Positions 7,406-56,272 of a stretch of DNA of 64,000 bases are shown one piece after another. Within the stretch, counting starts at the first letter, position 1. Each line of letters begins with the position of its first letter. Source of the DNA: Hoeflea sp. (GTDB lineage Bacteria; Pseudomonadota; Alphaproteobacteria; Rhizobiales; Rhizobiaceae); assembly GCA_019084245.1 (NCBI GenBank), contig JAHRFE010000007.1:175924-239923 (forward strand). The letters are read 5' to 3'. The notes under the pieces were generated by a model. The model saw nothing but the letters and a program-made list of their open reading frames with translations, did not search any database and had not been told where the DNA came from. The position numbers and the translations under genes were made by a program.

Positions 7406-7630
7406 AGGGCTCTTTTGTCAGTCAGGGTGCGTGTTTGCGGATTTACACGAGCTCGACGTCACCGTGAATCCCGCCTTGAGGCATAGGCCGGAAGCGATTT
7501 CCCCCTGTGTAACGGCAAAAGCTTAAATTTTGAGAAACAGATTAAATCATATGTTTACCATGAGAAATTGCGGGTGACATTTTGTTAAAACCTCTCGGTG
7601 CATGATGTTTTTGGAACAGGAGTATTTAGC

Positions 7631-9232
7631 ATGATGCTGAATTCTTATCTGCCAAACGCATTCAGGCGATATGCAATCGCTGGTTTGGCAATCGCATTGA
7701 TCACACCTCTGGCGGCCTTCGCTGGAGACATTCTTGCTGGCGTCGGCGGCGGGTTTGAGACCATGACCAGTCCGATTGGCCTGGCGGCAATCGCCGCGCC
7801 GGTCGCGGTCACCGGACTTGTTGCCGGGCTCGGGCGGCGTCACGACCGGCTGGCGAGACTCTTCAAGAGGCAGCAGGACAAGACCAAGCGTCTGAGGAAG
7901 GCGGCCTACCACGACAGCCTGACCGGACTGCGCAATCGCCGCGCCTTGACCGACGACGTCGCGCGCGCTCTTGCCGGTGAAAATGCCAGCCTGACGCTGC
8001 TGCTGTTCGATCTTGACCGGTTCAAGTTCATCAACGACACCATGGGCCATGCCGCGGGCGACGCGGTGCTCAGGGCGCTGGCCGAACGGCTCAAGGCGTC
8101 GTGTGGCGCGGACCGGCTGATCTACCGGCTGGGCGGCGATGAATTCGTGGTGTTGTGGGAGGGCTCCTGCGCCCAGGACACCATGGCGCAGTTCTGCGAC
8201 GAATTGATAGCGCGGGTGTTCCGGCCGGTTAGCCATGGCGACGGCGCCATCGACACGTCGGGCAGCATCGGCATCGCGGTCTCCGAGGGCGGCGGCGTCA
8301 GCTTGTCCGAACTGCTCAGGCGCGCCGACCTGGCGCTGTACCGCTCCAAGACAAAGCCTGGGTCGAGCTACAGCTTCTTCACCGAGGACATGGACAGCGA
8401 TCACCGGCTGCGCCGCGAACTCGAAGCCACGATGCGCGACGGTATCGCCAATGGCGGCTTCGAGGTTGACTACATGCCGGTGGTCACCGCGCAGACGCTG
8501 ACACCGTCGGGGTTCAAGGCAAGGCTGCGCTGGAACCATCCCGATTACGGCAATGTCGCCCATGACGTGTTCATGCCGATGGCCGAAGGCAGCGGCCTGA
8601 TCGTGCTCATCGGCAAGTGGATGCTGGGGCGGGTGCTCGAGGACGCGTCCACCTGGCATCATCAGGCGGAAATCACCCTGCCGGTGTCGTCTATACAATT
8701 GCAGGACCCGGGCTATGGGGAACTGGTGCTGAAAGCGCTGGCGGAAGCGGGGATTGCGGCCAACCGGCTGGTTCTCGACATCCGCGCCAATTCGACGCTG
8801 GGCGATTGTCCCGTGGCCTTGCGCAATCTCGAGACCCTGCGCGCGGCCCGCGTCCAGATCGCCGTCAGCGAGCTTGCGGCAAGCGTCGCGGGCCTGTCGA
8901 TGGCGCGGCCCTATCCTGTCGACCGCGTCCGTCTCGACCTCGGCCGGATCAAGGCGATCGCCGGGGAAAAGCGCACGGCGCAGATGCTCAACCTGTTCCT
9001 GCAGCTCGCCGCCACCGTGGGAACGCCAGTGACGCTCACCGGCGTTGACACGGAGAACGATCTGCAGGCCGCCTGCGCCGCCGAGCCCGCTGAACTGCAA
9101 GGCGGTTTCACCGGTGCGCCGCTCAGCGCTGACCAGACCCGGCAGTTCTTCACCTCGATGGACGGGATCACCCGGCTGAGCCCCGGCAACCGCAACACGC
9201 CCGACCGGCACGGTCTTCGCGCGGTCTGCTGA
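7631..9232 (+). CDS. GGDEF protein with degenerate EAL domain
   Basis: Membrane-anchored 533-residue protein, a likely diguanylate cyclase. Two hydrophobic segments (about 13-32 and 47-67) precede a GGDEF domain (about 95-250) with an intact RLGGDEFVVLWEG; the RxxD inhibitory site five residues upstream is absent. The C-terminal EAL domain (about 275-525) has lost key residues: GFKARLRW replaces the EAL signature and VLDIRANS replaces the usual LEITE. It is therefore probably not a phosphodiesterase, though it may still bind nucleotide. The start at 7631 (ATGATG) follows CAGGAG. Confidence 0.9.
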   Translation: MMLNSYLPNAFRRYAIAGLAIALITPLAAFAGDILAGVGGGFETMTSPIGLAAIAAPVAVTGLVAGLGRRHDRLARLFKRQQDKTKRLRKAAYHDSLTGLRNRRALTDDVARALAGENASLTLLLFDLDRFKFINDTMGHAAGDAVLRALAERLKASCGADRLIYRLGGDEFVVLWEGSCAQDTMAQFCDELIARVFRPVSHGDGAIDTSGSIGIAVSEGGGVSLSELLRRADLALYRSKTKPGSSYSFFTEDMDSDHRLRRELEATMRDGIANGGFEVDYMPVVTAQTLTPSGFKARLRWNHPDYGNVAHDVFMPMAEGSGLIVLIGKWMLGRVLEDASTWHHQAEITLPVSSIQLQDPGYGELVLKALAEAGIAANRLVLDIRANSTLGDCPVALRNLETLRAARVQIAVSELAASVAGLSMARPYPVDRVRLDLGRIKAIAGEKRTAQMLNLFLQLAATVGTPVTLTGVDTENDLQAACAAEPAELQGGFTGAPLSADQTRQFFTSMDGITRLSPGNRNTPDRHGLRAVC

Positions 9233-20861: not shown

Positions 20862-22127
20862 TTAGCCGCCGAAGGCCCTGGCCAGGCCTGCGCCTGCGGT
20901 CATGTCGAGAGCGGCGGACAGCTCCGCGGGCTTGCCGAGCAGATATCCCTGACCGAAGGGGACACCCAGCAGCCGCAATGTCGAGAGTTCGGCCTCGGTC
21001 TCTATGCCTTCGGCAATGATGAAGCTGCGGGTTTCCCGGGAGAAGAACAGGAGCGCCGTGGTGAGCGCGCGGCGCGCCGCGTCGGAATCAATATCCCGCG
21101 TCAGACTCATGTCGAGCTTGATGGCGTCGGGCGCGAGCGAGAGAATGTGGCTCATGCTGGCGTAGCCGGCGCCTGCGTCATCGATCGCCAGGCGGACACC
21201 CAGCTTTCTAAGCGGCGCCAAGGCTTCGCTCAGGGTTTCGTAATTCGATACCGCATCATGTTCGGTGACTTCGAGCACAAGGCGCGAACCCGTAATCTGA
21301 TCGATAATGGTTTCGATGCCGCCATTGATGATCGTGGACGGTGAGGCGTTGACCGACAGGTAGACGTCCGGCGGCAGCTGATCGAGCGCGCCCAGAGCGG
21401 TTGTCATCACGGCAAGTTCCAGCCGTTGGCCGAGCCCTGCGGCATGGGCGTCGGCAAACCACTTGTCCGGCGAGCGGTAGGGTTCGGAGGTAAACCGGCA
21501 CAGCGATTCAAAGCCGATGGCCCGGCCTGTCGAAAGATCGACGATCGGCTGGTAGACGCAATTGTAGGCCTCCTGGTCGAGGACGGCTTCGATCAGGGCG
21601 CGGTTGCTGGCAAGCCGCCGGTCATTCTTGATCTCTGATATGATCTGCGAGCCGACGAGATCGGCGAAGACCTGCATGATCTCGAGATCACGCTGGTTCA
21701 GTGTCGGCTGGGCGTGCGGGCTGAGGCAGCAGAACATGCCCAGCGTTTCTCCGGAAGCCGACGTGATCGGCACGCCGATATGGGCACCCACCGGCGCGGT
21801 CCGGGTGAAGGGGATCGACATCGCCAGTTCGGATTTCGATGTATCGGGCATCAACTGCGGCAACCGGCCATGCAGGATATGGCCGCAGTAGTTGTCATCG
21901 AGGGACATCGAGGCGCCGGGCCTGATCGGTGCGTCCGGATCGGCGGCGTCGACGGCCTCGAACACGGCCGTGTTTTCCTCGAGACGGCACACATAGGCCA
22001 CTTCCATGCTGAGATGTTTGCGTATCGCCTCGAGAGCGGTCTGGATGGCCTGGGGAGAATCTATACCGTCTGTAAAAAAGTTTTTGAGCACGTCTTGCAC
22101 CCTTGATTGAAAAATGCTGCCTGACAC
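20862..22127 (-). CDS. GAF-EAL cyclic-di-GMP phosphodiesterase
   Basis: Soluble 421-residue protein. An N-terminal GAF sensor domain (about 20-165) precedes an EAL domain (about 180-410) that would linearise c-di-GMP to pGpG. Catalytic and metal-binding motifs are intact: GFESLCRF (ESL variant of EAL), LSVNAS, LVLEVTEHD, LAIDDAGAGYASM, IKLDMSL and IAEGIETEAEL. The start is GTG at 22127. A perfect CtrA-type site lies 29-43 bases upstream. The GAF ligand is unknown. Confidence 0.92.
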   Translation of the reverse strand: MSGSIFQSRVQDVLKNFFTDGIDSPQAIQTALEAIRKHLSMEVAYVCRLEENTAVFEAVDAADPDAPIRPGASMSLDDNYCGHILHGRLPQLMPDTSKSELAMSIPFTRTAPVGAHIGVPITSASGETLGMFCCLSPHAQPTLNQRDLEIMQVFADLVGSQIISEIKNDRRLASNRALIEAVLDQEAYNCVYQPIVDLSTGRAIGFESLCRFTSEPYRSPDKWFADAHAAGLGQRLELAVMTTALGALDQLPPDVYLSVNASPSTIINGGIETIIDQITGSRLVLEVTEHDAVSNYETLSEALAPLRKLGVRLAIDDAGAGYASMSHILSLAPDAIKLDMSLTRDIDSDAARRALTTALLFFSRETRSFIIAEGIETEAELSTLRLLGVPFGQGYLLGKPAELSAALDMTAGAGLARAFGG

Positions 22128-30327: not shown

Positions 30328-30377
30328 TCTTGACGGGGTATTAACAGGGACAAACTCGGGGTGGAGATGGGAGTGGT

Positions 30378-30412
30378 TCCCATTGACGCCCATGGTGGCC
30401 CATGTTATCCCA
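30378..30412 (-). promoter_or_regulatory. MraZ-type operator: four 10-bp-spaced repeats
   Basis: On the + strand TCCCA, GCCCA, GCCCA and TCCCA start at 30378, 30388, 30398 and 30408, exactly 10 bp apart. On the - strand these read TGGGN-N5 repeated four times, the box described for enterobacterial MraZ. The position upstream of mraZ supports autoregulation of the dcw cluster. Confidence 0.8.
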
Positions 30413-30588
30413 AATGTCCAAGATCAGCAGGCGGGCATCCGCCGTTTCATCCCCATTTGGACCGCGGTTCCGGACCGGACCCGCCAGGGCGGTATCTGCC
30501 GCCCTCGAAATCCTGTGCGCGGAAAAGCGGCGGCAAAGCGGAGGGTCTATGGCGTGGGGCCAGCAGGCGGAAACGGCGGTTGAGAGTC

Positions 30589-31017
30589 ATGAACCGGTTC
30601 CTGTCGAATGCGACAAACAGGATCGACGCGAAGGGGCGGGTTTCCGTTCCCTCGATGTTTCGCGCCGTCCTGGCGCGTTCGGCGGTCGAAGAGCTCTATG
30701 CCTGGCAGGATTTTGTGTTTCCGGCGGTCTCGATGGCCGGGCCGGACGTGCTCGACCGCTTCGAGCGGATGATCGGATCGCAGGATCCGTTCTCGGCCGA
30801 AGCCAACAAGATGTCGCTGCTCATTCATGGCGGCGGGGTGTTCATGAAGCTCGACGGCGAGGGACGGCTTCTGGTGACGGATTTCATCCGCGATTTCACG
30901 GGCATCACCGACAGGGTGACGTTCGCGGGGCGGGGGGATCATTTTCAGCTCTGGGAGCCGGCGGCATTCGAGGAAATGCAGTCGCGGGCCCGGAAAGAAC
31001 GAACGGCCAGTTCCTGA
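30589..31017 (+). CDS. mraZ: transcriptional regulator MraZ
   Basis: First gene of the dcw cluster; a 142-residue DNA-binding protein of the AbrB-like fold that forms rings and represses its own cluster. The start [20 protein letters not shown] is diagnostic, with a second AbrB-like half in the C-terminal part ([18 protein letters not shown]). The ATG at 30589 is chosen over an upstream frame start by homology. Four operator-like repeats lie upstream. rsmH follows after 26 bases. Confidence 0.96.
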
Positions 31018-41985: not shown

Positions 41986-43412
41986 AAATGCCGCAAACCA
42001 TCGGCCTTGTCCATTTTATCGGCATTGGCGGCATCGGCATGAGCGGCATTGCCGAGGTGCTCAACAATCTCGGCTACAAGGTGCAGGGCTCGGACCAGTC
42101 CGACAGCGCCAATGTGCAAAGGCTGCGCGACAAGGGCATCGAGGTGCATATCGGCCATTCCGCCGCCAATCTGGGTGCTGCCGAAGTGGTGGTGGTCTCG
42201 ACCGCGATCAAGAAGAACAATCCCGAACTGGTGGCGGCGCGGGAGCGTCTGATCCCGGTGGTGCGCCGCGCCGAGATGCTGGCCGAGCTGATGCGCTTCC
42301 GCAATGCCATCGCCATTGGCGGCACCCATGGCAAGACCACCACGACCTCGATGGTGGCGACGCTGCTCGAGGCCGGCGGGCTCGACCCGACCGTGATCAA
42401 TGGCGGCATCATCAACGCCTATGGCACCAATGCGCGCATGGGCGAGGGCGAGTGGATGGTGGTGGAGGCCGACGAGAGCGACGGCACCTTCCTCAAGCTC
42501 CCCGCCGACATCGCCGTCGTGACCAATATCGATCCCGAGCATCTCGACCATTACGGCACCTTCGACGCGGTGCGCACGGCGTTCCGGCACTTCGTCGAGA
42601 ACGTTCCATTCTATGGCTTCGGCGTGATGTGCCTCGACCATCCGGAAGTTCAGGCGCTGGTCAGCCGCATCGAGGACCGGCGGGTGATCACCTATGGCGC
42701 CAATCCGCAATCGGATGTGCGCTATTCCAACCACCGCATGGACGGGCCGGTGTCTGTGTTCGACGTGGTGATCCACAGCCGCAAGACCGGGGCCGTGGTC
42801 GAGCTCAAGGACCTCAGGCTGCCGATGCCGGGCAGGCACAATGTCTCCAATGCGGTGGCGGCCATCGCGGTCGCCTATGAACTGGGATTGACGCCGGAAC
42901 AGATCGCCAAGGGCCTTGGTCAATTCGGCGGGGTCAAGCGCCGCTTCACCCACACCGGAACCTGGAACGGGGTCGAGATCTTTGACGATTACGGCCATCA
43001 CCCGGTCGAGATCAAGGCCGTGCTGTCGGCTGCCCGCGATGCCTGCCAGGGCCGGGTGATCGCGGTGGCCCAGCCGCACCGCTATACGCGGCTCGAAAGC
43101 CTGTTTGACGACTTCTCCACCTGTTTCAACGATGCCAACACGGCGATCATCGCGCCGGTCTATTCCGCCGGCGAGGACCCGATCAAGGACATCAATGCGG
43201 CAACGCTGGTCTCCAGCATGAAAGCCGGCGGCCACCGCGACGCACGGCTGATCGACGGCCCGGAGGCGCTGGCGCCTCTGATCGCCGAGATCGCCAGACC
43301 GGGCGATTACGTCGTTTGCCTGGGCGCGGGCACCATCACCCAATGGGCCAATCAGTTGCCCAAGGAACTCGATGCGCTCAAGCCCGCGCCGGAGCCCGGG
43401 GGTGACGCATGA
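41982..43412 (+). CDS. murC: UDP-MurNAc:L-alanine ligase
   Basis: First Mur ligase of the stem peptide, 476 residues. N-terminal [16 protein letters not shown] (Rossmann), P-loop [18 protein letters not shown] (about 112-129), [12 protein letters not shown] and [14 protein letters not shown] are all present. Start overlaps murG and stop overlaps murB, each by four bases (ATGA). Confidence 0.98.
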
Positions 43413-44386
43413 AGCCCCTGCAGGTTGACGGCGAGACGCTGCTTGCGTCGCTTGAGGGCAAGCTTGACGGTGTGCGCGGTCGGCTGACGCCCAATGCCGA
43501 GATGTCGAAGATCACCTGGTTCCGCACCGGCGGACCGGCGGAAGTGCTGTTCCAGCCTGCCGACGAGGAAGATCTGGCGGCCTTTCTCGCGGCGCTGCCC
43601 GAAGAGATCCCGGTTTTGCCGGTGGGCATCGGCTCCAATCTGCTGGTGCGTGACGGCGGCATTCCCGGCGTTGTGATCCGGCTGTCGGCCAAGGGCTTCG
43701 GCCAGGCCGAACGGATCTCCGACACGCGGCTTTCGGCGGGCGCCGCCTGTCCGGACAAGCATGTGGCGGCGCTGGCGCTCGAAACCGGGCTTTCAGGCTT
43801 TCATTTCTATCACGGCATTCCGGGCGCCATTGGCGGCGCGCTGAGGATGAATGCCGGCGCCAATGGCGTGGAGACCCGCGAGCGCGTTGTCGAGGTTCAC
43901 GCCTTCGACCGCAAGGGCGTTCGCCATGTGCTTTCGAATGCCGAGATGGGCTACGCCTACCGGAATTCCGCGGCGTCAAAGGATCTCATCTTCACCCGCG
44001 CCGTGTTGGAGGGCACGCCCGGTGACCCGGCCGAGATCCGCGCCGCCATGGACGCCGTGCAGCAGCACCGCGAGACCGTGCAGCCGATCCGCGAAAAGAC
44101 CGGCGGCTCTACCTTCAAGAATCCCGAGGGTCATTCGGCCTGGAAGGTGATCGACGAAGCCGGCTGCCGCGGGCTGACCATTGGCGGCGCGCAGATGTCG
44201 CCGTTGCACTGCAATTTCATGATCAACACCGGCACGGCCTCGGGCTATGAGCTGGAAAATCTCGGCGAAACCGTGCGCGCCCGGGTGCTGGAGCATTCGG
44301 GCATCAGGCTCGAATGGGAAATCAAGCGCCTCGGCCTGTTCGAGCCCGGCCATGTGGTGCAGGAATTCCTGGGGCAGATGGTTTAG
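43409..44386 (+). CDS. murB: UDP-N-acetylenolpyruvoylglucosamine reductase
   Basis: FAD-dependent 325-residue reductase that forms UDP-MurNAc using NADPH. Motifs [53 protein letters not shown], the [11 protein letters not shown] region (type I-like Tyr-Arg) and the Ser-containing [20 protein letters not shown]. It is the last gene of the uninterrupted first half of the dcw cluster; ddlB, normally close by, is 6.9 kb further on. Confidence 0.97.
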
Positions 44387-44411
44387 CAAGCGCGCCTCGG
44401 GGGAGGGGCAG

Positions 44412-44834
44412 ATGCAGGCAGGTTCCACAGCGTCGAAACCCAAAGCCCTGACCGGCCGGTGCCTGTGCGGCGCGGTCAGCTTCACCGTTGCCGACGCCTT
44501 CGACTATGCGATGAACTGCCATTGCGGCAAATGCCGCCGCACCACCGGCTCGGCGTTCAAGCCGATGGGCGGGATCGCGCGGGCCGAACTCGCTGTCACC
44601 TCCGGCGCCGGTGACATCTTCCTTTATGGCGACGCCACCACCCATGACGCCCATTGCCGGCATTGCGGGTCGCTGCTCTATTCCCAGGTTCGCGACGCCC
44701 AGTACGCCCATGTGCCGCTCGGCGTGCTGATCGATACGCCCTCGATCCGTCCGACCCACCACATCCATGTCGCCTCGAAGGCGCCCTGGTTCGAGATCAC
44801 CGACGCCCTGCCGCAATACCAGGAATTCGATTGA
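44412..44834 (+). CDS. GFA-family (CENP-V-type) zinc protein
   Basis: A 140-residue protein of the glutathione-dependent formaldehyde-activating enzyme (GFA) family. Zinc-binding cysteines are in GRCLCGAVSF (about 17-26), NCHCGKCRRTTGSAF (about 38-52) and HCRHCGSLLYS (about 83-93). Only some members handle S-hydroxymethylglutathione; no formaldehyde dehydrogenase is nearby, so the reaction is not assigned. Start at 44412 follows GGGGGAGGGGCAG, 25 bases after murB, so it may be read from the dcw promoter. Confidence 0.9.
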   Translation: MQAGSTASKPKALTGRCLCGAVSFTVADAFDYAMNCHCGKCRRTTGSAFKPMGGIARAELAVTSGAGDIFLYGDATTHDAHCRHCGSLLYSQVRDAQYAHVPLGVLIDTPSIRPTHHIHVASKAPWFEITDALPQYQEFD

Positions 44835-44977
44835 GGGCAGAGCACGCGGTGCGATTGCCATCAAATCGAGTGCGCGATCGTGCACATATATTCAAATGTT
44901 TTTGGTTTGTTCCTGTGCTACCGATTGCGTGAAAGCTTGGGAGACAGCCTCCTGCGCGGAACATCCGGGAGCCAGCG

Positions 44978-45469
44978 ATGTCTGACACTGCATGCCATGA
45001 TTTCGATTTCGTCTACGGCGACTGGAAGGTTCGCCACCGCCGTCTCACTGTGCGACTGAAGGGAAGCGACGAATGGGAGGAGTTCGACGGGACCAGCTCG
45101 ACGCGCCCTGTGCTTGGGGGCAACGGCAATATAGAGGACAATTGGATCGATTTTCCGGGCGGCGCCTACCGGGCCGTTGCGTTGCGCTCCTATGACCGGG
45201 CCGCGGAAGTATGGGCGATCTGGTGGCTCGATCAGCGCAACCCGCACCATCTCGACGTGCCGGTGGTGGGACGATTCGCGAATGGCGTCGGCACCTTTCT
45301 GGCTGATGACAGCTTCGAGGGCCGCCCGATCAAGGTCCGCTTCAACTGGGTCAGCCTTGCGACAGATTCGTGCCGCTGGGAACAGGCATTCTCTTCGGAC
45401 GGCGGGTTAAGCTGGGAAACAAACTGGATCATGCAGTTTAGCCGCGTGGCAGATGACCAGACCCGCTAA
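44978..45469 (+). CDS. DUF1579-like protein
   Basis: A 163-residue soluble protein with a lipocalin-like or NTF2-unrelated beta-rich layout: FDFVYGDWKVRHRRLTVRLK at the start, IWWLDQRNPHHLDVPVVGRF in the middle and SCRWEQAFSSDGGLSWETNW near the end. The pattern resembles the DUF1579 family, whose function is not established. No signal peptide. It precedes the GGDEF pair, and a CtrA-like site overlaps its stop codon. Confidence 0.75.
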   Translation: MSDTACHDFDFVYGDWKVRHRRLTVRLKGSDEWEEFDGTSSTRPVLGGNGNIEDNWIDFPGGAYRAVALRSYDRAAEVWAIWWLDQRNPHHLDVPVVGRFANGVGTFLADDSFEGRPIKVRFNWVSLATDSCRWEQAFSSDGGLSWETNWIMQFSRVADDQTR

Positions 45470-45480
45470 CCCGGCATTAA
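45466..45480. promoter_or_regulatory. candidate CtrA site upstream of first GGDEF gene
   Basis: CTAA-CCCGGCA-TTAA is one base from TTAA-N7-TTAA, and the right half extends to TTAACCAT (45477-45484), which matches the extended CtrA half-site. It lies 98 bases before the GGDEF start. Confidence 0.45.
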
Positions 45481-45526
45481 CCATGCAATCTGTTTCAAAC
45501 CTGAATTATCTTCTTCGCGGGGACTG

Positions 45527-45574
45527 GCAGGATCCTGCGGGGCCTATGGCAGGACAATCTTAATTCGCTCGACC
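45527..45574 (+). repeat. duplicated upstream block, copy 1
   Basis: Contains the palindrome GCAGGATCCTGC (45527-45538) and CAATCTTAATTCG. The same order, with changes, occurs before the second GGDEF gene, so the duplication probably carried its promoter. Confidence 0.55.
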
Positions 45575-45578
45575 TACC

Positions 45579-46448
45579 ATGCTCAACGTGATTTGGAGTG
45601 TATTCATGGTCGGCGTGACCCGAAACTGGATTGTCAAACAGTTGATGCTCGGGGAGTTCCGCTCCTACCGGGATGTTTGCCGCAAGTCGGTCTGGGTCGG
45701 GGTCAAGGTCTCGTTGCTCGCCTATTGTCTCAATCTCGCGGCGCATTTTCTGATCCATGGACTTGGCCTGCTGCCCTACAGCCTGGGTGAGGCGCTGATT
45801 GTCGCCACGCTTCTGACGCCGCCCATCACCTTTATTCTCGCGGTCGGCTCCTACATGGCGGTCGGCTTCGCGATTCATGATCTTGGCGTGTCGCGCGCGG
45901 AGCTTGAACGGCTGAGCCGCACCGACATGCTGTCAGGGCTCGCCAACCGGCGGGCTTTCCAGGATGCGTTCGATAAATGCGAACTGGACAAGACCTTGGT
46001 GGTCTTTGACATTGATCGTTTCAAGACGATCAACGATACCCACGGGCACTCCAGCGGCGATGCGGCGATTGCCGAGGTCGCGACAATACTGTCGGCCGTT
46101 TTCGGAGAGCGCTGCCTGTGCGCGCGCATCGGCGGCGAGGAATTCGCCGTGTTCAGTTCCGATATCGCGTTCGCAGAATTCGCCGCGCTGGCCGAGATCG
46201 CCCGGGTGCGGATCTCCCGACTGCAAATCAGCGCCGATGCGGGCGCGTTTGGAATCACCGTCTCCGGCGGCATCGCCCGGGCGCGGGCGGAGCAGAAATT
46301 CGGCGAGAGTTTTTCGCGCGCTGACAAGGCGCTTTATGCCGCCAAGGCCGCCGGCCGCGACCGGATCTCCGTTTCATACCCGACCGATGATCACGCATGT
46401 GACGCGGAACCGGCTGATCTGCCGGTTGCGAAGACACATGCGGCCTGA
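45579..46448 (+). CDS. membrane diguanylate cyclase (GGDEF), copy 1
   Basis: A 289-residue protein with two hydrophobic segments (about 40-65 and 72-98) and a GGDEF domain (about 110-275) that would make c-di-GMP from two GTP. Active-site motif RIGGEEFAVFSSD is intact; no RxxD inhibitory site is seen five residues upstream. It is alignable end to end with the next GGDEF gene, sharing DLGVSRAELE and LSRTDMLSGLANRRAF. The start at 45579 gives three more N-terminal residues than copy 2; ATG at 45606 is an alternative. Confidence 0.92.
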   Translation: MLNVIWSVFMVGVTRNWIVKQLMLGEFRSYRDVCRKSVWVGVKVSLLAYCLNLAAHFLIHGLGLLPYSLGEALIVATLLTPPITFILAVGSYMAVGFAIHDLGVSRAELERLSRTDMLSGLANRRAFQDAFDKCELDKTLVVFDIDRFKTINDTHGHSSGDAAIAEVATILSAVFGERCLCARIGGEEFAVFSSDIAFAEFAALAEIARVRISRLQISADAGAFGITVSGGIARARAEQKFGESFSRADKALYAAKAAGRDRISVSYPTDDHACDAEPADLPVAKTHAA

Positions 46449-46551
46449 GCAGGGCTTATATCTTTCGGTCTGATCTGACCGGACTCACCCACACGTTTAC
46501 TCGAAATTCACCGAGTTATCCGCTTTAGGCCTCAATCCACCGCTTTGCCGG

Positions 46552-46606
46552 AAACGGCAAGATCCTGCACGGGCAATGACAGCACATTCTTAATCCGAAC
46601 TCTCTA
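46552..46606 (+). repeat. duplicated upstream block, copy 2
   Basis: Contains the imperfect palindrome GCAAGATCCTGC (46557-46568) and CATTCTTAATCCG, in the same order as the block upstream of copy 1. It ends about 12 bases before the ATG of copy 2. Confidence 0.5.
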
Positions 46607-46617
46607 ATAAACGCCAT

Positions 46618-47475
46618 ATGGACTGGAACGCGTACATTGTGGGCATGGCCCGTGATTGGATCATCAGGCAGCTGACACTGGGCGAGTTTGATTCGCGTCG
46701 CCATGTCTGGCGCAAGGCGATCGGGATGGCGTGCAAGATCGCGGTGCTCGCCTATGGCATCAATCTGATCGCCCATTGGATCATGTATCAGGTCGATTTG
46801 CTGCCCTACACGCTGCAAGCCGGGTTGATCGCCGCCACGGTGCTGACGCCAACCATTGCCTTTTCCGTCGCTCTTGCCGTCTATGTGGTTCTTGGTTTTG
46901 CCATCTATGATCTCGGCGTGTCGCGCGCTGAGCTGGAACATTTGAGCCGCACCGACATGCTGTCGGGACTGGCCAACCGCCGGGCATTTATGGAACAGTT
47001 CGACCAATGCAACCGGGAAAAAACCTTGCTGATTGTCGATATCGACCGCTTCAAGATGGTCAACGACAAATACGGGCACGCGGTTGGCGATGAGGTGATC
47101 GTCAAGGTCGCCAACATGCTGACATCGGTCTTTGCCGGGCGAGGGGTTTGCGCGCGCATCGGCGGCGAGGAGTTCGCGGTGTGCAGTTCGGACATGGATT
47201 TCGCCGAATTCGCTGCCCTTGGCGAGATTGCCCGCCACAGGATCGCTCAGATGCGCACCGAGGTTGATGGCGAGGCATTTTCCGTCACCGTCTCCGGCGG
47301 CATCACCCGGGCCTTTCCGGGACAGGAGTTCGCCGATATCTTTTCGCGCGCCGACAAGGCGCTTTATGACGCCAAGGAAGGTGGACGCAACCGCATCGTG
47401 CTGTCCTATGACTCCGCTTCGCCACCTCGCAAGAGTGTCCAGTCTGATCCTGTCGTACACTCATCCAGAAACTGA
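46618..47475 (+). CDS. membrane diguanylate cyclase (GGDEF), copy 2
   Basis: A 285-residue paralogue of the preceding gene with the same two-helix N-terminus (about 35-60 and 68-95) and a GGDEF domain (about 107-272). RIGGEEFAVCSSD is intact, and no RxxD site is present. The two differ most in the last 15 residues and the segment between the second helix and the active site. The tandem order, similar upstream DNA and shared motifs show a local duplication. Sensor input is unknown. Confidence 0.92.
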   Translation: MDWNAYIVGMARDWIIRQLTLGEFDSRRHVWRKAIGMACKIAVLAYGINLIAHWIMYQVDLLPYTLQAGLIAATVLTPTIAFSVALAVYVVLGFAIYDLGVSRAELEHLSRTDMLSGLANRRAFMEQFDQCNREKTLLIVDIDRFKMVNDKYGHAVGDEVIVKVANMLTSVFAGRGVCARIGGEEFAVCSSDMDFAEFAALGEIARHRIAQMRTEVDGEAFSVTVSGGITRAFPGQEFADIFSRADKALYDAKEGGRNRIVLSYDSASPPRKSVQSDPVVHSSRN

Positions 47476-47498
47476 AACAGGAGCTTTGGACCTGCGGA

Positions 47499-48626
47499 TC
47501 ATTCCGCCAGTCCCAACGCCCGCCTGACCGCATCATGCGGCAGCGCCGGCGCGAAGTTCCCGTCCCGCCCGGTCATCGCCTCATTGGCAATCATCGCATT
47601 GAGGATGGCTTCTTCGGTGGCCTGCACCACGGCCTCGAAGAACGGGTCCATGTCTTCATCCGGCACAAAGCGCACGGTGCGGACGGCGCCGGAGTCGAAA
47701 TCGCTATTGGCGCTGGAGAACGCCAGGAACAGGTCGCCCGAGCCGTGATTGGCCATGCCGCCGGTCCGACCGATCCCAAATGTGGCGCGCCGCGCCAGCC
47801 GCTTCAGCTGATGCGGCAGAAACGGCGCGTCGGTGGCGATGATGACGATGATCGAGCTCAGTTCCTTGTCCGGCGCGCCGCTTTGCATCTGCGGCAGGTC
47901 GGGATCGGCGCCGATGGTCTTTCCAAGCACGGTCAGATGCCGGCGCGTGCCGAAATTGGCCTGCACGAACACACCGGTGGTGAATTCTTCGCCGCCAAAG
48001 CCAATGCGCCGCGAGGCCGTTCCGGAGCCGGCCTTGAAACCGAAGCATTTCATGCCGGTTCCGCCGCCGATGCTGCCTTCCTCGATCGGTCCGCCATGGG
48101 CCGCGTCGATCGCCTCGATCACGTGCCGGGCCTCGACATGAAAGCCGTTGATGTCGTTCAGGAACCCGTCATAGGTTTCGGCCGCCACCGGCAGTGCGAA
48201 ATCGTCATGGTAGCGCTCGGCCAGCGCATCCACCGCCCAGCGGATGGTGGCGTCGCGGGCAATGCCGCAGGAATGGGTGTTGGTGATGGTGATCGGCAGC
48301 CCGAACTTGCCGGTCTCCTCAATGTAATGCGTGCCGCTCAGCTCGCCATTGCCGTTGAGGCTGAAGAAGCCGGCGAACAGCGGCTCGTGGATTGTCTCGA
48401 CCGGCCGCGGCAGAATTGCCGTCACCCCGGTGCGCACCGGACCCTTGCCCTGAACCAGCGCACCGTCGCCCGCAATGAGGGTCGCATATCCGACGCTGAC
48501 GCCCGCCACATCGGTGATCGCATTGTGCGGCCCGCAGATCCCCTCGAACGGCAGGCCAAGCCCCCGGGCGCGCAGCTTGCCCGAGGGCGTGTTTTTCCAG
48601 GCTGGATTCATCGGGGTGGGGGACAT
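47499..48626 (-). CDS. P1 (DmpA-type) aminopeptidase
   Basis: A 375-residue peptidase of family S58 (L-aminopeptidase D-Ala-esterase/amidase type), made as one chain that self-cleaves into two. Family pieces are LGLPFEGICGPHNAITDVAG near the start, TNTHSCGIARDATIRW, GSIGGGTGMKCFGF and GSGTASRRIG, the last covering the expected autocleavage and nucleophile site. The start at 48626 follows AGGAG. It is antiparallel to the GGDEF pair and not a dcw gene; D-amino-acid peptides are a possible substrate given the neighbours, but this is only inference. Confidence 0.9.
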   Translation of the reverse strand: MSPTPMNPAWKNTPSGKLRARGLGLPFEGICGPHNAITDVAGVSVGYATLIAGDGALVQGKGPVRTGVTAILPRPVETIHEPLFAGFFSLNGNGELSGTHYIEETGKFGLPITITNTHSCGIARDATIRWAVDALAERYHDDFALPVAAETYDGFLNDINGFHVEARHVIEAIDAAHGGPIEEGSIGGGTGMKCFGFKAGSGTASRRIGFGGEEFTTGVFVQANFGTRRHLTVLGKTIGADPDLPQMQSGAPDKELSSIIVIIATDAPFLPHQLKRLARRATFGIGRTGGMANHGSGDLFLAFSSANSDFDSGAVRTVRFVPDEDMDPFFEAVVQATEEAILNAMIANEAMTGRDGNFAPALPHDAVRRALGLAE

Positions 48627-48753
48627 GGCGGCGACGCTCCTGACAGATGCCCGTGCGCATGACTGTGCGCGGAATGCAAGGCCATCAGATGTCACAGATT
48701 CCGGTTGACCCGCAAGCAGTCCCTCGTCTGCCAGTGGACGGAACCGGTTCGAA

Positions 48754-50666
48754 TCAACCTCTCTTGACGGGCGAAGATAGCTCGGAAAGCCGGGTATCCT
48801 GATCCAGTATCATTCGCATGGCGTCCTCTGCGTGCATGGGCCTGCCGTAAAGATATCCCTGAATCAGGTCGGGCTGAAGCTTGGCAAGGATTTCCATCTC
48901 GTCTTCCGTTTCAACGCCTTCGAGAACGCATCGCAGATCGAGCTTTCTGCACAGACCGATGATGCCGGAAACGATTTCCTTCGATGTCGTGCTGTGGGGG
49001 ACCTTGCGGATGAAGCTCCTGTCGATCTTGACCTTGTCCAGCGGCAGCTGATCGAGATACTCGAAACTTGAATATCCGGATCCGAAATCGTCGAGAGCGA
49101 CCTTGCATCCGCTGCCCCGCAGGGCGGCAAGCATGGTCCTCGAGGTATTGATGTCCGACATGACCGCTGTTTCGGTAATCTCGAATTCGATACGGCTTGG
49201 TGAAATGCCGGATCGCATGATCTGACCCAGCAAGGACAGAATGAACAACCGGTCCGATATGTCCTTGCCCGAAAGGTTGAAGGAGAGGCTGATGTCCAGG
49301 GGCCACGTCGCCAGTGTGGCAAGCCCCTTTCTGAACAGGATGTCCGTGACTTTGCGGATATGGCCCGAGCGTTCCGCCGCGCGGATGAAAAGGTCGGGGC
49401 GCACGAGACCGAGCTTCGGGCTTTGCCAGCGTGCAAGGGCTTCAAAGCCGACAACACGTTGCATGCCAGGTGAGTATTGCGGTTGAAACAGAAGAAACAG
49501 CTCGGTCTCGAGATCGCCTTCGCGCAATGCGCGTTCGATTTGGATGGCCTGTTTCATTTCATCGTCTTCAGCCGTGTCAAACAGGATGCACTGGCCGCGG
49601 TGATGCTTCTTGGCCTTGTAGAGTGCGAAATCGGCTTTTTCGTAAAGCTGAGCACGTGAAGACCCCATGCTCGGGAAATGGGAAAATCCGGCAGAAACGC
49701 CGACGGCCAGTTCCATGAGTTCTATGGAGTAGGGAAGGCTGATTGCCTTGATGGCATTGTCGCCAAGCTGCCTGACCTTCTCTTCACTAAAATTTCCAGG
49801 CACAATGATCACGAATTCATCACCGCCGATACGTCCAAACGTGACGCCCTCGACGTTGAGGTTGGCGGCGCGCTCGACAACGGCGCACAGCAGAGTGTCG
49901 CCGATGATATGGCCGTACACATCATTGATCGTCTTGAAGCCATCGAGGTCTACGATGCCCATCCAGAATGGCCGGCGTTGCTCGACGAGGTAGTCGATTT
50001 TCTGAAAAATGGCGCGCCGGTTCGGGACGCCCGTCAGCATGTCGGTATTGGCGAGCCGCTGGGCCCCGGCCGCCAGTTTGTCGGCCAGCAGACGAGCGTC
50101 AATCTGCCGAAGAATTGCCTTTCTCAGCAGTGTAGCCATGCTGAAGGAGGCGAAGGCGGTGGCGACGCCAATGGAGACATACTGTGTGAACAGTTCAGGC
50201 GGGAGACTGGAGGCGAACCAGTAAGCGTCGCCAGTGACAGGAAAACGCTGAAAATCGTGACCCTGAGGGTGACGCCGGTCGTTGAAAAAATGACCGCCAT
50301 AAGTGCGAAATAGATGAGCTTTGACTGCTCGAAGTGAAGCAGCAGGTAACTCAATACGTTGAAATACACCAACAGGTTGATGAACAGACCTGTCAGTTCG
50401 AGCCTGCCCAGCGAGATTGATTTCCTGGCAAGCACATGCTGTCTGAGCAGGTAGTAGCTCAAGGCCGTGATGGAACTGATGGACGCAAGCATGGCAAGGT
50501 ACAGACCTCTTTCGTCCTGCCAATGGCTCCAGGTTATGTAGCAATAGTAGATACATCCAGGCACAAGAATGGAGCTGATAATTGGAATATAGGCATTTGA
50601 AATAGCTTGATTTCGGATTGGATCGGACGGTGATTTGAGTTTTTCGATCCAGTTGCTGGAAGCCAT
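48754..50666 (-). pseudogene. GGDEF-EAL gene split by a frameshift
   Basis: The 5' part (50666 down to about 50240) encodes MASSNWIEKL and five or six membrane helices; the frame then runs out of sense after FSVFLSLATL. The next frame picks up at about 50225-50245 with TGDAYWFASSLPPELFTQYV and continues through a last helix, GGDEF (RIGGDEFVIIVPG) and EAL (GFEALARW, LSFNLS, FEITETAVM, LDDFGSGYSS, LEGVETEDEM) to 48754. All catalytic motifs are intact, so a single one-base change (insertion of one or loss of two) separates two halves of one gene. It may be a real mutation or a sequencing error; if real, the cytoplasmic part could still be made from an internal start. Confidence 0.85.
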
Positions 50667-51317
50667 GAGATTACCTATCCCGAACGAGCATTGAGAGGCC
50701 GCGCATACCGTTCATGTAATTTGCGGAATATTGTCCATGAAGCTGAAAGTGCGTGCCTGATGGTTCAGTAACCGGCGTCCTTGTCCTTGTCTGCCATCCT
50801 CCAAATCTGGCAGTAATTGATAAATAATTGGTAATGATTTGAATGTGTGTTTTAGCGGTGCTCAGGTGGATGAGCCTCCATCGTGTCTGCCTTTGTTTTG
50901 CCAGGATGGTGTAACTTGTCAGCGGCTGTATTTGTTGACCGGAATGCAGAGACTTGAGACCTTCTATCCCGCAAGCCGCCAGGGCGAAGATCTGTCGCGT
51001 GAAAGGAACTTTCCCGCATTTGGCAACTTCACCTTGCGTGTGCTCTCTCAGTAAAGGAATTGTGGCTGAAGGATTCTGCGATCGCTTGGCGCGGGCCGGG
51101 TGGGGGCTCCGGCTTGGGGCAGTGCTTTGCACATGATCCGGAAAAGCGCCGCAATCGCCTGTGCGGCATGCATCTGGATGGCTTGGCGCAACCTTCGACC
51201 TGTATTCTGGACTGTAACTTGCCCAACCCGGCAATTTTTGACGAAAGCCGGATGGCAGGGCGCGCGGACCGACGGCGGCAAGTGGGTGCGTGCGAACGTG
51301 GCGAGACGAGGGACTGA
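50667..51317. other. 651-base gap between GGDEF-EAL gene and ddlB
   Basis: No convincing gene is seen. The left part (50667-50850) is AT-richer and would hold the promoter of the GGDEF-EAL gene. The right part must hold a promoter for ddlB-ftsQ-ftsA-ftsZ, because the upstream genes point the other way, but no clear -35/-10 pair could be picked. An inverted repeat GCCGCA/TGCGGC lies at 51148-51167. A short + frame 51060-51317 touches the ddlB start but resembles no family. Confidence 0.5.
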
Positions 51318-52256
51318 ATGACTTCCGACACACCAAAGAAACATGTGGCCGTGCTGATGGGCGGGTTTTCCTCGGAACGGCCGGTGAGCCTCGCGTCGGG
51401 CAAGCCCTGCGCCGATGCGCTGGAGAACGCCGGCTACCGGGTCACCCGCGTCGATGTCGGCAAGGATATCGCCGCGGTGCTCAGCGAGCTCAGGCCCGAT
51501 GTCGCCTTCAATGCGCTGCACGGGCCTTATGGCGAGGATGGCACCATCCAGGGCATCCTCGAATATCTTGGAATTCCCTACACCCATTCCGGCGTCACGG
51601 CTTCCGCGCTCGCCATGGACAAGCGGCTCTCCAAGATCGTCGCCAAGGCAGTGGGCATCCCGGTGGCGGAATCGAAGGTGATGAACCGGCACGAGTTCAC
51701 CTCGGCGCATCCGATGACGCCGCCCTATGTGGTCAAGCCGGTGAATGAAGGCTCGAGCTTCGGCGTCGTCATCGTCCAGGAGAACCAGAGCCATCCGCCG
51801 CAGGTGATCACCTCCAACGAGTGGAAATATGGAGACGCGGTGATGGTCGAGCGCTTCATCGCCGGACGCGAACTCACCTGCACCATCATGGGCGACGTGG
51901 CGCTGGCGGTCACCGAGATCGTGCCGCAAGGACACAGCTTCTATGATTATGACTCCAAATATGTCCCCGGAGGCTCGAAACACGTTTGCCCGGCGGAAAT
52001 TTCACCAATTGTTTACCAAAAAATACGTAGGTTGGCTTTGAAGGCGCATCAAGCGATCGGTTGTCGCGGCGTGAGCAGGTCCGATTTCCGCTATGACGAC
52101 CGTTTCTCCGAGAATGGGGAGGTCATCTGGCTCGAAATCAACACCCAGCCCGGCATGACACCGACATCCTTGGCGCCCGAAATGGCCCTGCAGGCGGGGC
52201 ATTCGTTCGAAGAATTTGTCAGTTGGATGGTGGAGGACGCTTCGTGTCGCCGATGA
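51318..52256 (+). CDS. ddlB: D-alanine:D-alanine ligase
   Basis: ATP-grasp enzyme of 312 residues that makes the D-Ala-D-Ala dipeptide used by MurF. N-terminal [55 protein letters not shown], the ATP loop [13 protein letters not shown] and the C-terminal metal/substrate site [15 protein letters not shown] are all present. Its stop overlaps the ftsQ start region by 13 bases. It is the first gene of the second half of the dcw cluster. Confidence 0.97.
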
Positions 52257-53173: not shown

Positions 53174-54498
53174 GCCTGTTCCGCCCCTCATCCGTGCTGC
53201 CCCGGCTCAAGCCGCTGTCGACCAAGCGGGTCAGCATCGTCACCGTGCTCGACATCGGCTCGTCCAAGGTGGTCTGCATGATCGGCCGCCTGACCCCGGT
53301 TGAAGGCAGCGAAATTTTGTCCGGCCGCACCCACAAGATCGAGATCATCGGGCTTGGTCACCAGAAATCCCGCGGTCTCAAGGCCGGCGTGATTTCCGAC
53401 ATGGATGCGGTGGAGAATTCGGTGCGCCTGGCCGTCGATGGCGCCGAGCGCATGGCCGGCGTCACTGTCGAAAGCCTGATCGTCAACGTCACCGCCGGTC
53501 GGCTGAAAAGCGAAACCCATTCTTCCTCGGTCAATCTGGGCGGCCACGAGATCGCCTCGGGCGATCTGGCCAAGGTGGTCAACGCGGCGACACGGCAGAG
53601 CCAACTCAACGAGCGCGCCATCCTGCACTCGCTGCCGTCGAGCTATACGCTCGATGGCGAGCGCGGCATCTCTGATCCGGCCGGCATGTATGGCGACCTT
53701 CTGGGCGTCGACATGCATGTGCTGACGGCTGATCGCGCACCGCTCAGGAATCTCGAATTGTCGATCAATCGCGCCCACCTCACCGTCGAGGCCATGGTGG
53801 CGACGCCTTATGCCTCCGGGCTTGCGGCGCTGGTTTCCGACGAGGCCGAAATGGGCTGCGCCACCATCGACATGGGTGGCGGCACCACCACGATCTCGGT
53901 GTTCTCCGAAGGCAAGCTGGTGCATGCCGATGCGATCGCGCTTGGCGGCCAGCATGTGACCATGGATCTGGCGCGCGGGCTGTCGACACGGCTCGACGAC
54001 GCCGAGCGCATCAAGGTGGTGCACGGCTCGGCCCTGCCGCAGGCCGGCGAGGACCGTGACGTGATCTCGATCCCGCCGATCGGCGAGGACGAGCGTGACC
54101 TGCCGACCCATGTGCCGCGCGGCCTGGTCTCGCGCATCGTGCGCGCCCGGGTCGAGGAAACACTGGAAATGCTGCGCGACCGCATCCAGCAGTCGGGCTA
54201 CTCGTCGCTTGTCGGCAAGCGCATCGTGCTGACCGGCGGCGCAAGCCAGCTGACCGGCCTGTCCGAATCGGCACGACGGATACTTGCGCGCAATGTGCGG
54301 ATCGGCCGGCCGCTGGGGGTCTCCGGACTGCCGGCGGCGGCCAAGGGGCCGGCATTCTCCACGGCGGTGGGCCTGATGATTTATCCGCAGGTCGCCCATC
54401 TCGAATCACATGGCTCTGGCGAGGGCGGCTTTGCCGCCATGGCCGGCGCAGGCGGACGCCTGTCCCGCATGGGACAGTGGCTCAAAGAGAGCTTTTGA
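53170..54498 (+). CDS. ftsA: cell division protein FtsA
   Basis: Actin-fold ATPase of 442 residues that tethers FtsZ to the membrane and recruits late divisome proteins. Phosphate-binding motifs [15 protein letters not shown] (about 26-40) and [16 protein letters not shown] (about 235-250) are present, and the C-terminal amphipathic membrane helix is [15 protein letters not shown]. It starts with GTG inside the ftsQ stop. ftsZ follows after 58 bases. Confidence 0.97.
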
Positions 54499-54556
54499 AT
54501 TTACCAGATTGGCCCACGCGGCGGTGCGGCCATGCGACAAGGAAGGAACGGGTGCC

Positions 54557-56272
54557 ATGACCATCAATTTGCAGAAGCCGGACATCACCGAGCTGAAGCC
54601 GCGCATCACGGTGTTCGGCGTTGGCGGAGGCGGCGGCAATGCCGTCAACAACATGATCAATGCAGGGCTCCAGGGCGTCGACTTCGTTGTCGCCAACACG
54701 GACGCCCAGGCGCTGACCATGTCCAAGGCCGAACGGATCATCCAGCTTGGCGCTGCGGTGACCGAAGGACTTGGCGCAGGGTCGCAGCCGGAAGTCGGCC
54801 GCGCGGCCGCCGAGGAATGCATCGACGAGATCCTTGATCATCTCAACAGCACGCATATGTGCTTCGTCACCGCCGGCATGGGCGGCGGCACAGGTACCGG
54901 CGCCGCACCCGTTGTCGCCCAGGCCGCCCGCAACAAGGGCATCCTGACCGTCGGCGTGGTCACCAAGCCGTTCCATTTCGAAGGTCAGCGCCGCATGCGT
55001 CTGGCCGAGGCCGGTATCGAGGAATTGCAGAAATGCGTTGACACGCTGATCGTCATTCCCAACCAGAACCTGTTTCGCATCGCCAATGACAAGACCACCT
55101 TCGCCGACGCCTTCGCGATGGCCGACCAGGTGCTTTACTCGGGCGTCGCCTGCATCACCGACCTGATGGTCAAGGAAGGCCTGATCAACCTCGACTTCGC
55201 CGACGTCCGTTCGGTGATGCGCGAGATGGGCCGGGCCATGATGGGCACCGGCGAGGCATCGGGCGAGGGCCGCGCGATGGCCGCAGCCGAAGCCGCGATC
55301 GCCAATCCGCTGCTTGATGAAACCACGATGAAGGGCGCGCAGGGCCTGCTGATCTCGATCACCGGCGGCCGCGACATGACGCTGTTCGAAGTTGACGAGG
55401 CGGCGACCCGCATCCGCGAGGAAGTCGACGCCGACGCCAACATCATTCTGGGTGCAACCTTCGACGAAGCGCTCGAAGGCCTGATCCGCGTCTCGGTTGT
55501 GGCCACCGGCATCGACCGTGTCGAAGGCGCTGTCGAGCATCGCCCGATGATGACCGCGCCGCGCCCTGCTGCGCGTCCTGCCGCCAACGCGCAGCCGCAA
55601 GCCGCACAGGCCGCGCGTCCGGCACAGGCGCCCGCGGCCCAGCCGTCCATGGCGCCCGTCGCCAAGGATCCGGTGGCTGAAACCATCCTGACGGCGGAAG
55701 CCGAACTGGAGCGCGAACTCGACATCGCAACCAGGATGGACCTTGCCGCCAAGAGCCAGGCTCCCACCGACGTCGCCGCGCAACCCGGCTTTCAACCGCA
55801 AAGCCGCCTGTTTGCCGGCAATGGCGAGATGGCGGCGCCGCAGCAGCCGGCTATGACCGCACCGCAGCGCCCGGCCATGCCTGCGCCGCAGCAGCCTGCC
55901 GCACATGCGCCGGCCCTGCGGACCGAGCCAGAGCCGATGCGCATGCCGCGCGTCGAGGACTTCCCGCCGGTGGTCCAGGCCGAGATGGAGCATCGCGCCC
56001 AGCCGCAAGGCCATGCCGATGAGCGCGGTCCGATGGGGTTGCTCAAGCGGCTGTCGAACTCGCTCGGACGCCGCGAAGAGGACGAACCGGTTCAGGCCGT
56101 ACAGGCCGGCCCGGCGCCGCAGGCCCGGCGTCCATTGTCGCCCGAGGCCAGCGTCTATGCGCCGCGCCGCGGACTGCTCGACGATCAGGGCAGAATGACA
56201 CCGCAGGCACGCGCGAGTCACGAGGACGAACAACTCGAGATTCCCGCCTTCCTGCGCCGCCAGAGCAAGTGA
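54557..56272 (+). CDS. ftsZ: cell division GTPase FtsZ
   Basis: Tubulin-like GTPase of 571 residues that forms the Z ring. N-terminal [18 protein letters not shown], the GTP signature [15 protein letters not shown] (about 111-125) and the NxDxxD-like catalytic loop region [11 protein letters not shown]. The globular part ends near 320; a linker of about 230 Ala/Pro/Gln-rich residues leads to the conserved C-terminal peptide [12 protein letters not shown]. Such long linkers are usual in Hyphomicrobiales FtsZ. Start at 54557 after GGAAGGAAC. Confidence 0.98.

Follow-up and report, generated by a model that had tools for sequence, protein, structure and literature searches.

The membrane-anchored GGDEF enzyme DmxA of Myxococcus xanthus is encoded in an operon with ftsB, in an arrangement that is conserved in relatives, and is recruited by its membrane domain to the septum and activated there; deletion of DmxA leaves growth and cell length without defect (PMC11255338). 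In Escherichia coli, YfiN arrests division (PMC4992967), and in Sinorhizobium meliloti the 7TMR-PAS-GGDEF-EAL phosphodiesterase RgsP, whose GGDEF domain is inactive, has an essential role in growth that is independent of the second messenger cyclic di-GMP (c-di-GMP); the bacterial order to which Hoeflea belongs is known for polar growth (PMC6107284). Within a 64,000-nucleotide stretch of Hoeflea sp. (family Rhizobiaceae; assembly GCA_019084245.1, contig JAHRFE010000007.1, positions 175,924 to 239,923 of the forward strand; hereafter ‘the window’), two tandem genes for predicted membrane diguanylate cyclases (DGCs), termed DGC-A and DGC-B, lie between murB and ddlB of the division and cell wall (dcw) cluster, which makes them a second example, from a phylogenetically remote lineage, of a membrane DGC fixed beside division or wall genes. 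A literature search, with most subscription journals outside its reach, found no report of a DGC between murB and ddlB. The arrangement is real and conserved, and the residence of the enzyme in this ‘slot’ is well supported; any link to division is hypothetical.

Diguanylate cyclase genes between murB and ddlB

The sequence-only reading of this stretch had described a dcw run from mraZ to murB, followed by 6.9 kb of other genes and then by ddlB-ftsQ-ftsA-ftsZ, and exact coordinates and Pfam matches bear this out. The left edge of the interval is murB (43409..44386, + strand; MurB_C and FAD_binding_4), with its stop at 44386, and the right edge is ddlB (51318..52256, +; identified by Pfam), with its start at 51318; the Pfam order is MraW, an FtsI-type transpeptidase, two Mur ligases, an MraY-type transferase, a third Mur ligase, FtsW, MurG, MurC (a Mur ligase) and MurB, then Ddl, FtsQ and FtsA. 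The genes mraZ, ftsL and ftsZ fell outside the Pfam scan; the open reading frames at 30361-31017 (within it) and 54410-56272 are taken, from their translations, to hold mraZ and ftsZ. Six genes occupy the interval, three of which had been read as c-di-GMP genes (two tandem GGDEF genes and one frameshifted GGDEF-EAL gene), an assignment that Pfam and alignments corroborate: DGC-A at 45579..46448 (+), DGC-B at 46618..47475 (+) and a frame-broken GGDEF-EAL gene on the opposite strand. With 30 DGC-A-like places in the 4.82 Mb genome (E 0.001), even spacing would lead one to expect about 0.04 per 6.9 kb, against the three seen, two of which are tandem duplicates.

Close orthologues of DGC-A keep the same place in other genomes. 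A scan of GTDB contigs with an alignment of the membrane N-domain gave 45 loci (16 of them on the same contigs as in the genome samples searched), every one with murB upstream on the same strand and 44 with ddlB downstream, the 45th contig being cut off. They belong to Hoeflea, Pseudohoeflea, Ciceribacter, Rhizobium, Peteryoungia, Allorhizobium, Agrobacterium and Mycoplana, with some assigned to a higher group only and one to Arenimonas, which is probably mislabelled. When 394 genomes of the family were searched with the N-domain (E 0.001), matches were found in 40 (five of them Hoeflea), in 12 of 109 genera. Twelve strong matches outside Hoeflea (E below 1e-19) were fetched and all lie between murB and ddlB; among the weaker matches, of which 13 of 23 were fetched, 2 adjoin murB, whereas the 6.6-12 kb taken around the other 11 contain neither of the two genes. 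In loci L161 and L162 (genomes G307 and G347) more distant DGCs lie directly 3' of murB, and the fetched stretch of 12 kb contains no ddlB. An order-wide search of 297 genomes at 1e-8 returned one match, the window’s own genome. A dcw core gene would be present in nearly all relatives; this one is present in 14 of 18 Hoeflea genomes, and matches of any kind to its N-domain occur in 40 of 394 genomes of the family and, at 1e-8, in 1 of 297 of the order.

All 18 Hoeflea genomes contain murB and ddlB, spaced 2.6-7.4 kb apart (determined by hand; in G008 a contig end truncates murB). DGC-A lies between them in 14 and is absent from G009, G010, G015 and G016; DGC-B is found in seven intervals (G000, G003, G004, G005, G006, G007 and G013) and the GGDEF-EAL gene in 11, with two copies in G002. 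At least one of the three is present in 16 of the 18 intervals; in G009 an EAL match is weak and covers part of the domain, and G015 has no match at all. By reading only, the slot of G003 appears to hold an IS66-type transposase (L052 6545-7819), and that of G015 a methyl-accepting chemotaxis protein (L064 1197-3116). The sequence-only reading had suggested comparing these intervals across relatives, and had held that a functional link would be unlikely if the insert were confined to one strain and sat at random positions in others; this condition fails, since the 14 Hoeflea genomes and members of other genera retain the GGDEF gene between murB and ddlB, where all the close orthologues examined are located.

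A recent, strain-specific insertion that happened to land beside division genes could account for the broken GGDEF-EAL copy and for the G+C content of 0.554 and 0.513 at positions 49001-51000 (which hold the GGDEF-EAL gene and the region upstream of ddlB), compared with 0.59-0.64 in adjoining stretches. However, GGDEF orthologues occupy the same place in 14 of the 18 Hoeflea genomes and follow murB in 45 loci that include other genera; on this ground the explanation was rejected for the GGDEF genes, and with the GGDEF-EAL gene itself inside the interval in 11 of 18 genomes it is extremely improbable altogether.

Enzyme features and the promoter-like element

DGC-A combines a membrane N-domain with a GGDEF domain (motif GGEEF), and DGC-B is its tandem paralogue; the Pfam E-values for GGDEF are 6.9e-31 and 1.2e-35, respectively, and GGDEF is the only Pfam domain in either, with no GAF domain in either protein. 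Across 54 proteins the active site is intact (GGEEF in 52, GGEEY in 2), so that the Pfam domain and the GG(D/E)EF motif of an active DGC occur together, and a PleD-type I-site, taken as an RxxD separated from GGEEF by five residues, occurs in none of the 54. The N-domain comprises approximately 100 residues; in 51 of the 54 proteins the first 110 residues contain two or three hydrophobic segments (one in the other 3). Among solved structures the nearest mostly match the GGDEF part only, the best being 6tts, the GGDEF diguanylate cyclase DgcB. When compared with five relatives, the ratio of nonsynonymous to synonymous substitution rates (dN/dS) is 0.16-0.28 for DGC-A and 0.25-0.28 for DGC-B, against 0.08-0.15 for murB and 0.05-0.15 for ddlB; both genes are under purifying selection, weaker than that on the core genes. 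Judged by these features the predicted enzyme is presumably active and should make c-di-GMP at the inner membrane, and should do so free of product feedback because it has no I-site.

Upstream of the DGC genes lies a promoter-like element, TnTTAA followed by 11 bases and TA, which is present in this strict form in 46 of 50 upstream regions and in all 50 if a spacing of 9-12 bases is allowed. The pattern was found and counted on the same sequences, and hence was also counted in controls: it is present in 0 of 44 regions upstream of murB and in 0 of 44 upstream of ddlB, and among 20,000 random windows 108 contain the strict and 132 the loose form (0.5-0.7%). The second hexamer reads TAnnnT in 45 of the 46 strict elements. 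The element of DGC-A (45556..45580, +; TnTTAA, 11 bases, TAnnnT) ends in a hexamer, running to 45580, that overlaps the first ATG at 45579, and translation therefore probably starts at the conserved methionine at 45606. That of DGC-B (46586..46610, +) departs from the pattern in its last hexamer, TAATAA. Among 11 paralogues unlinked to the cluster, one has the strict element and several others a TTAG variant, seen by eye; the strict element is missing from the other 10, and from the more distant DGCs of L124, L161 and L162, in or beside the slot. The element presumably drives transcription of the gene behind it.

Several further signals were considered and set aside. A wide regulon was rejected, because the pattern has three matches genome-wide, two of which are DGC-A and DGC-B, and a reversed control pattern has 12. 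The third match (L219; G000:C25:152468-152488) lies just downstream of another frame of GGDEF-EAL type, and may be due to chance. The full site for CtrA, which we take to be TTAA-N7-TTAA, is found in 0 of the 50 upstream regions, and GANTC in 12 of 50, compared with 11% of random windows, which is not convincing. A palindrome just 5' of DGC-A in the window was dropped when, by eye, it proved not to be kept in relatives. In the Peteryoungia group (L192:7935-8014 and 17 relatives) a short CCCC-GGGG hairpin includes the ribosome site of the DGC gene in its 3' arm; over these 18 sequences the five pairs of the hairpin show no two-sided changes, which leaves the hairpin unproven. A scan of 43.0-52.3 kb against Rfam gave nothing at the gathering score.

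The murB-ddlB junction as a variable slot

In an otherwise conserved dcw cluster, the junction between murB and ddlB is a variable slot. Of 141 genomes from the family, 126 have both genes on one contig within 11 kb (by hand); the gap is under 600 bp in 70 and 0.67 kb or more in 56, three of which are Hoeflea. No GGDEF match was labelled in the 60 short intervals that were fetched out of the 70, and five of 53 longer intervals fetched from outside Hoeflea have one. When 30 proteins (one or two large frames from each of 29 intervals) were submitted to Pfam, they proved to be transporters, regulators, glycosyl- and acyltransferases and others, with six lacking a match; four of those six frames (L111, L113, L117 and L127) overlap a transporter match on the opposite strand and were probably wrongly chosen. 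A single MFS transporter, 66-92% identical to the query (L118:1355-2656), resides in 15 of the 53 longer intervals under 13 genus codes, the query locus included, and in four more loci of the Mycoplana group; all 19 copies are oriented against the cluster. Five genomes have in this slot a member of one MatE transporter family, with 51-62% identity (L114:1129-2532, L111, L123, L127 and L133). Because the slot is variable, and mainly because the MFS transporter is kept there too, a fixed place in it need not mean a function in division, and fixed position alone is no proof of one.

The explanation favored here, to which a probability of roughly 0.6 is assigned, is that the variable slot houses an inherited membrane DGC, its place in the dcw cluster being kept mainly by descent and probably without a special role in division. 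The junction would tolerate extra genes in the Rhizobiaceae, probably because murB closes one transcription unit and ddlB-ftsQ-ftsA-ftsZ has its own upstream region. The DGC that occupies the slot of Hoeflea, Pseudohoeflea, the Mycoplana group and the Ciceribacter/Peteryoungia group, behind a conserved promoter-like element of its own, would be inherited, and in Hoeflea would have been duplicated into DGC-A and DGC-B. The spacing of the gene is of the kind such a history might leave. In the Ciceribacter/Peteryoungia group the gene starts (as picked by a script) approximately 60-156 bp 3' of murB in 27 of 31 loci, the gap being 1.2-1.4 kb in L184, L191, L196 and L201, and the gene ends, where this is seen, approximately 210-260 bp before the ddlB match (64 bp in L186). 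Since this last distance is close to the murB-ddlB gap of many genomes lacking the gene (mostly 120-360 bp among those with a short gap, by hand), it looks as if the gene had been put in front of an unaltered ddlB upstream region.

Trees agree with descent in part. In a tree of the DGCs from which long rows had been omitted, a branch with support 100 sets all 50 interval-located proteins apart; with the long rows kept, 54 interval-located rows are set apart with support 89 (the rows omitted were L151, L209, L183, L196 and eight outside rows, either long or redundant). Within Hoeflea, DGC-A and DGC-B form two sister groups (supports 92 and 98), so that the tandem pair probably goes back to a basal duplication in the genus, followed by losses of DGC-B. 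Movement of the gene between lineages, by recombination through the conserved murB and ddlB flanks, would make its fixed place a by-product of transfer, and is compatible with descent as well as with a role in division. The patchy presence of the gene, which demands six changes on a tree of MurB plus DdlB from 167 loci (two of 169 having been dropped for a short MurB or DdlB), is consistent with transfer; the GTDB-scan loci on that tree were drawn by their DGC, and presence counts on it are not frequencies. So is the near rejection by the DGC sequences of the Ciceribacter/Peteryoungia plus Mycoplana grouping that the flanks lead one to expect (approximately unbiased test, p-AU 0.055). That value, however, is no rejection at 0.05, the DGC tree test does not reject Ciceribacter/Peteryoungia as a single clade (p-AU 0.375), and the flanking genes, used as a species-like tree, could have moved themselves and may share the history of the DGC gene. 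Transfer as the cause of the fixed place is accordingly rated as quite unlikely.

Three observations weigh against placement mainly by descent. The same near rejection of the flank-derived grouping leaves descent unproven; the distant relatives in G307 and G347 adjoin murB even though ddlB is outside the fetched stretch; and the occurrence of all 45 close orthologues at the murB-ddlB site, on the murB strand, may mean more than common ancestry. That strictness of position and strand, together with a dedicated promoter-like element and the absence of an I-site, speaks for an enzyme that acts at the division site or growing pole, where its membrane domain would be recruited by divisome or wall-synthesis proteins and a local pulse of c-di-GMP would couple septation or new-pole formation to surface behavior, the place in the dcw cluster reflecting this role. 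A precedent is offered by E. coli YfiN, which goes to the Z ring (PMC4992967). Yet the gene is missing from 4 of 18 Hoeflea genomes, any match to its N-domain is found in only 40 of 394 family genomes, and the MFS transporter is kept just as faithfully in the slot; the short N-domain, with its few hydrophobic segments and no GAF domain, differs from the six helices and two GAF domains of DmxA; and in S. meliloti the essential contribution of RgsP to growth persists in a strain in which no c-di-GMP can be detected, so that growth in this species does not in general depend on the messenger (PMC6107284). Such a role is possible, on the unlikely side. A bolder and slightly more doubtful proposal, drawn by analogy, is that the dcw cluster of some Rhizobiaceae encodes a c-di-GMP synthase which, under a conserved promoter of its own, releases pulses of the messenger at the septum or growing pole, and which evolved independently of, and works like, Myxococcus DmxA. 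The sequence-only reading had proposed a local link between c-di-GMP turnover and septation or wall synthesis. This proposal is supported in part: its refuting condition fails, the GGDEF gene being retained between murB and ddlB in most Hoeflea genomes (14 of 18) and outside the genus, but the link to septation itself is no more than a possibility in a variable slot in which a transporter is also fixed.

Neighboring genes and comparison with known systems

The remaining residents of the interval in the window are a GFA-family protein (44412..44834, +; identified by Pfam, and also found 3' of murB in G004, G005, G007 and G013), a protein of 163 residues with no Pfam match (44978..45469, +), a Peptidase family S58 protein (47499..48695, -; Pfam) and the GGDEF-EAL gene. 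The 3' part of the latter lies in its own frame at 48754..50346 (-; open frame from 50556; identified from the open reading frame list and Pfam), and its 5' part, the membrane region, lies in another frame at 50124..50666 (-). Intact copies are present in 10 further Hoeflea genomes, and in DNA alignments with each of the 10 the window copy is a net one base short near 50.22 kb. The N-terminal part was found at 13 places in 11 of 18 Hoeflea genomes, 12 of them inside the interval and the remaining one in G014 (C7); the 12 copies outside the window have open frames of at least 640 residues, compared with 195 in the window. Because both parts of the gene still show low dN/dS when compared with relatives (0.11-0.24 where computable, three of seven comparisons for the N-terminal part being saturated), the break is either recent or an assembly error. 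The N-terminal part has no match in the five nearest relatives on the MurB plus DdlB tree (G004, G005, G006, G007 and G013), and the likely picture is of a gene divergent from ddlB, often present in Hoeflea, broken in the window strain and missing from its closest relatives. A distant family member (L129, G134) carries a GGDEF-EAL gene on the cluster strand between murB and ddlB, apparently an independent arrival.

Two further c-di-GMP genes upstream in the window, noted in the sequence-only reading as part of a local concentration, were confirmed by Pfam as a GGDEF-EAL gene (7598..9232, +) and a GAF-EAL gene (20862..22127, -), but they lend little weight to a link with division: 17 of 18 Hoeflea genomes have a homologue of the former, which lies at a distance of 22-43 kb from murB wherever the two share a contig (14 genomes, by hand), and the latter is present in 4 of 18.

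The short membrane DGCs of other Rhizobiaceae that are unlinked to the cluster have the same domain order, a length of 275-287 residues (starts set by script) and 30-36% identity in the N-domain; they differ in location, 11 of 13 weaker matches examined lacking both murB and ddlB in the 6.6-12 kb fetched. With RgsP the enzyme shares its status as a c-di-GMP enzyme of the Rhizobiales, RgsP being tied to polar wall growth, whereas RgsP is a phosphodiesterase with an inactive GGDEF domain and the GGEEF site here is intact (PMC6107284). Like YfiN/DgcN of E. coli and Salmonella, it is a membrane DGC without an I-site (PMC10127611); YfiN has a periplasmic inhibitor, YfiR (PMC4992967). As a single gene that is absent from some wild relatives and present in genera represented by named strains in collections, the DGC gene makes it directly testable whether the Rhizobiaceae produce c-di-GMP at the division site. 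DmxA may be regarded as the closest precedent: both are membrane-anchored GGDEF enzymes linked to a division or wall gene in a conserved place, but DmxA possesses six helices, two GAF domains and a low-affinity I-site (PMC11255338), where the enzyme described here has mostly two or three segments and neither GAF domain nor I-site, and in place of an operon with ftsB it lies between murB and ddlB behind a promoter-like element of its own.

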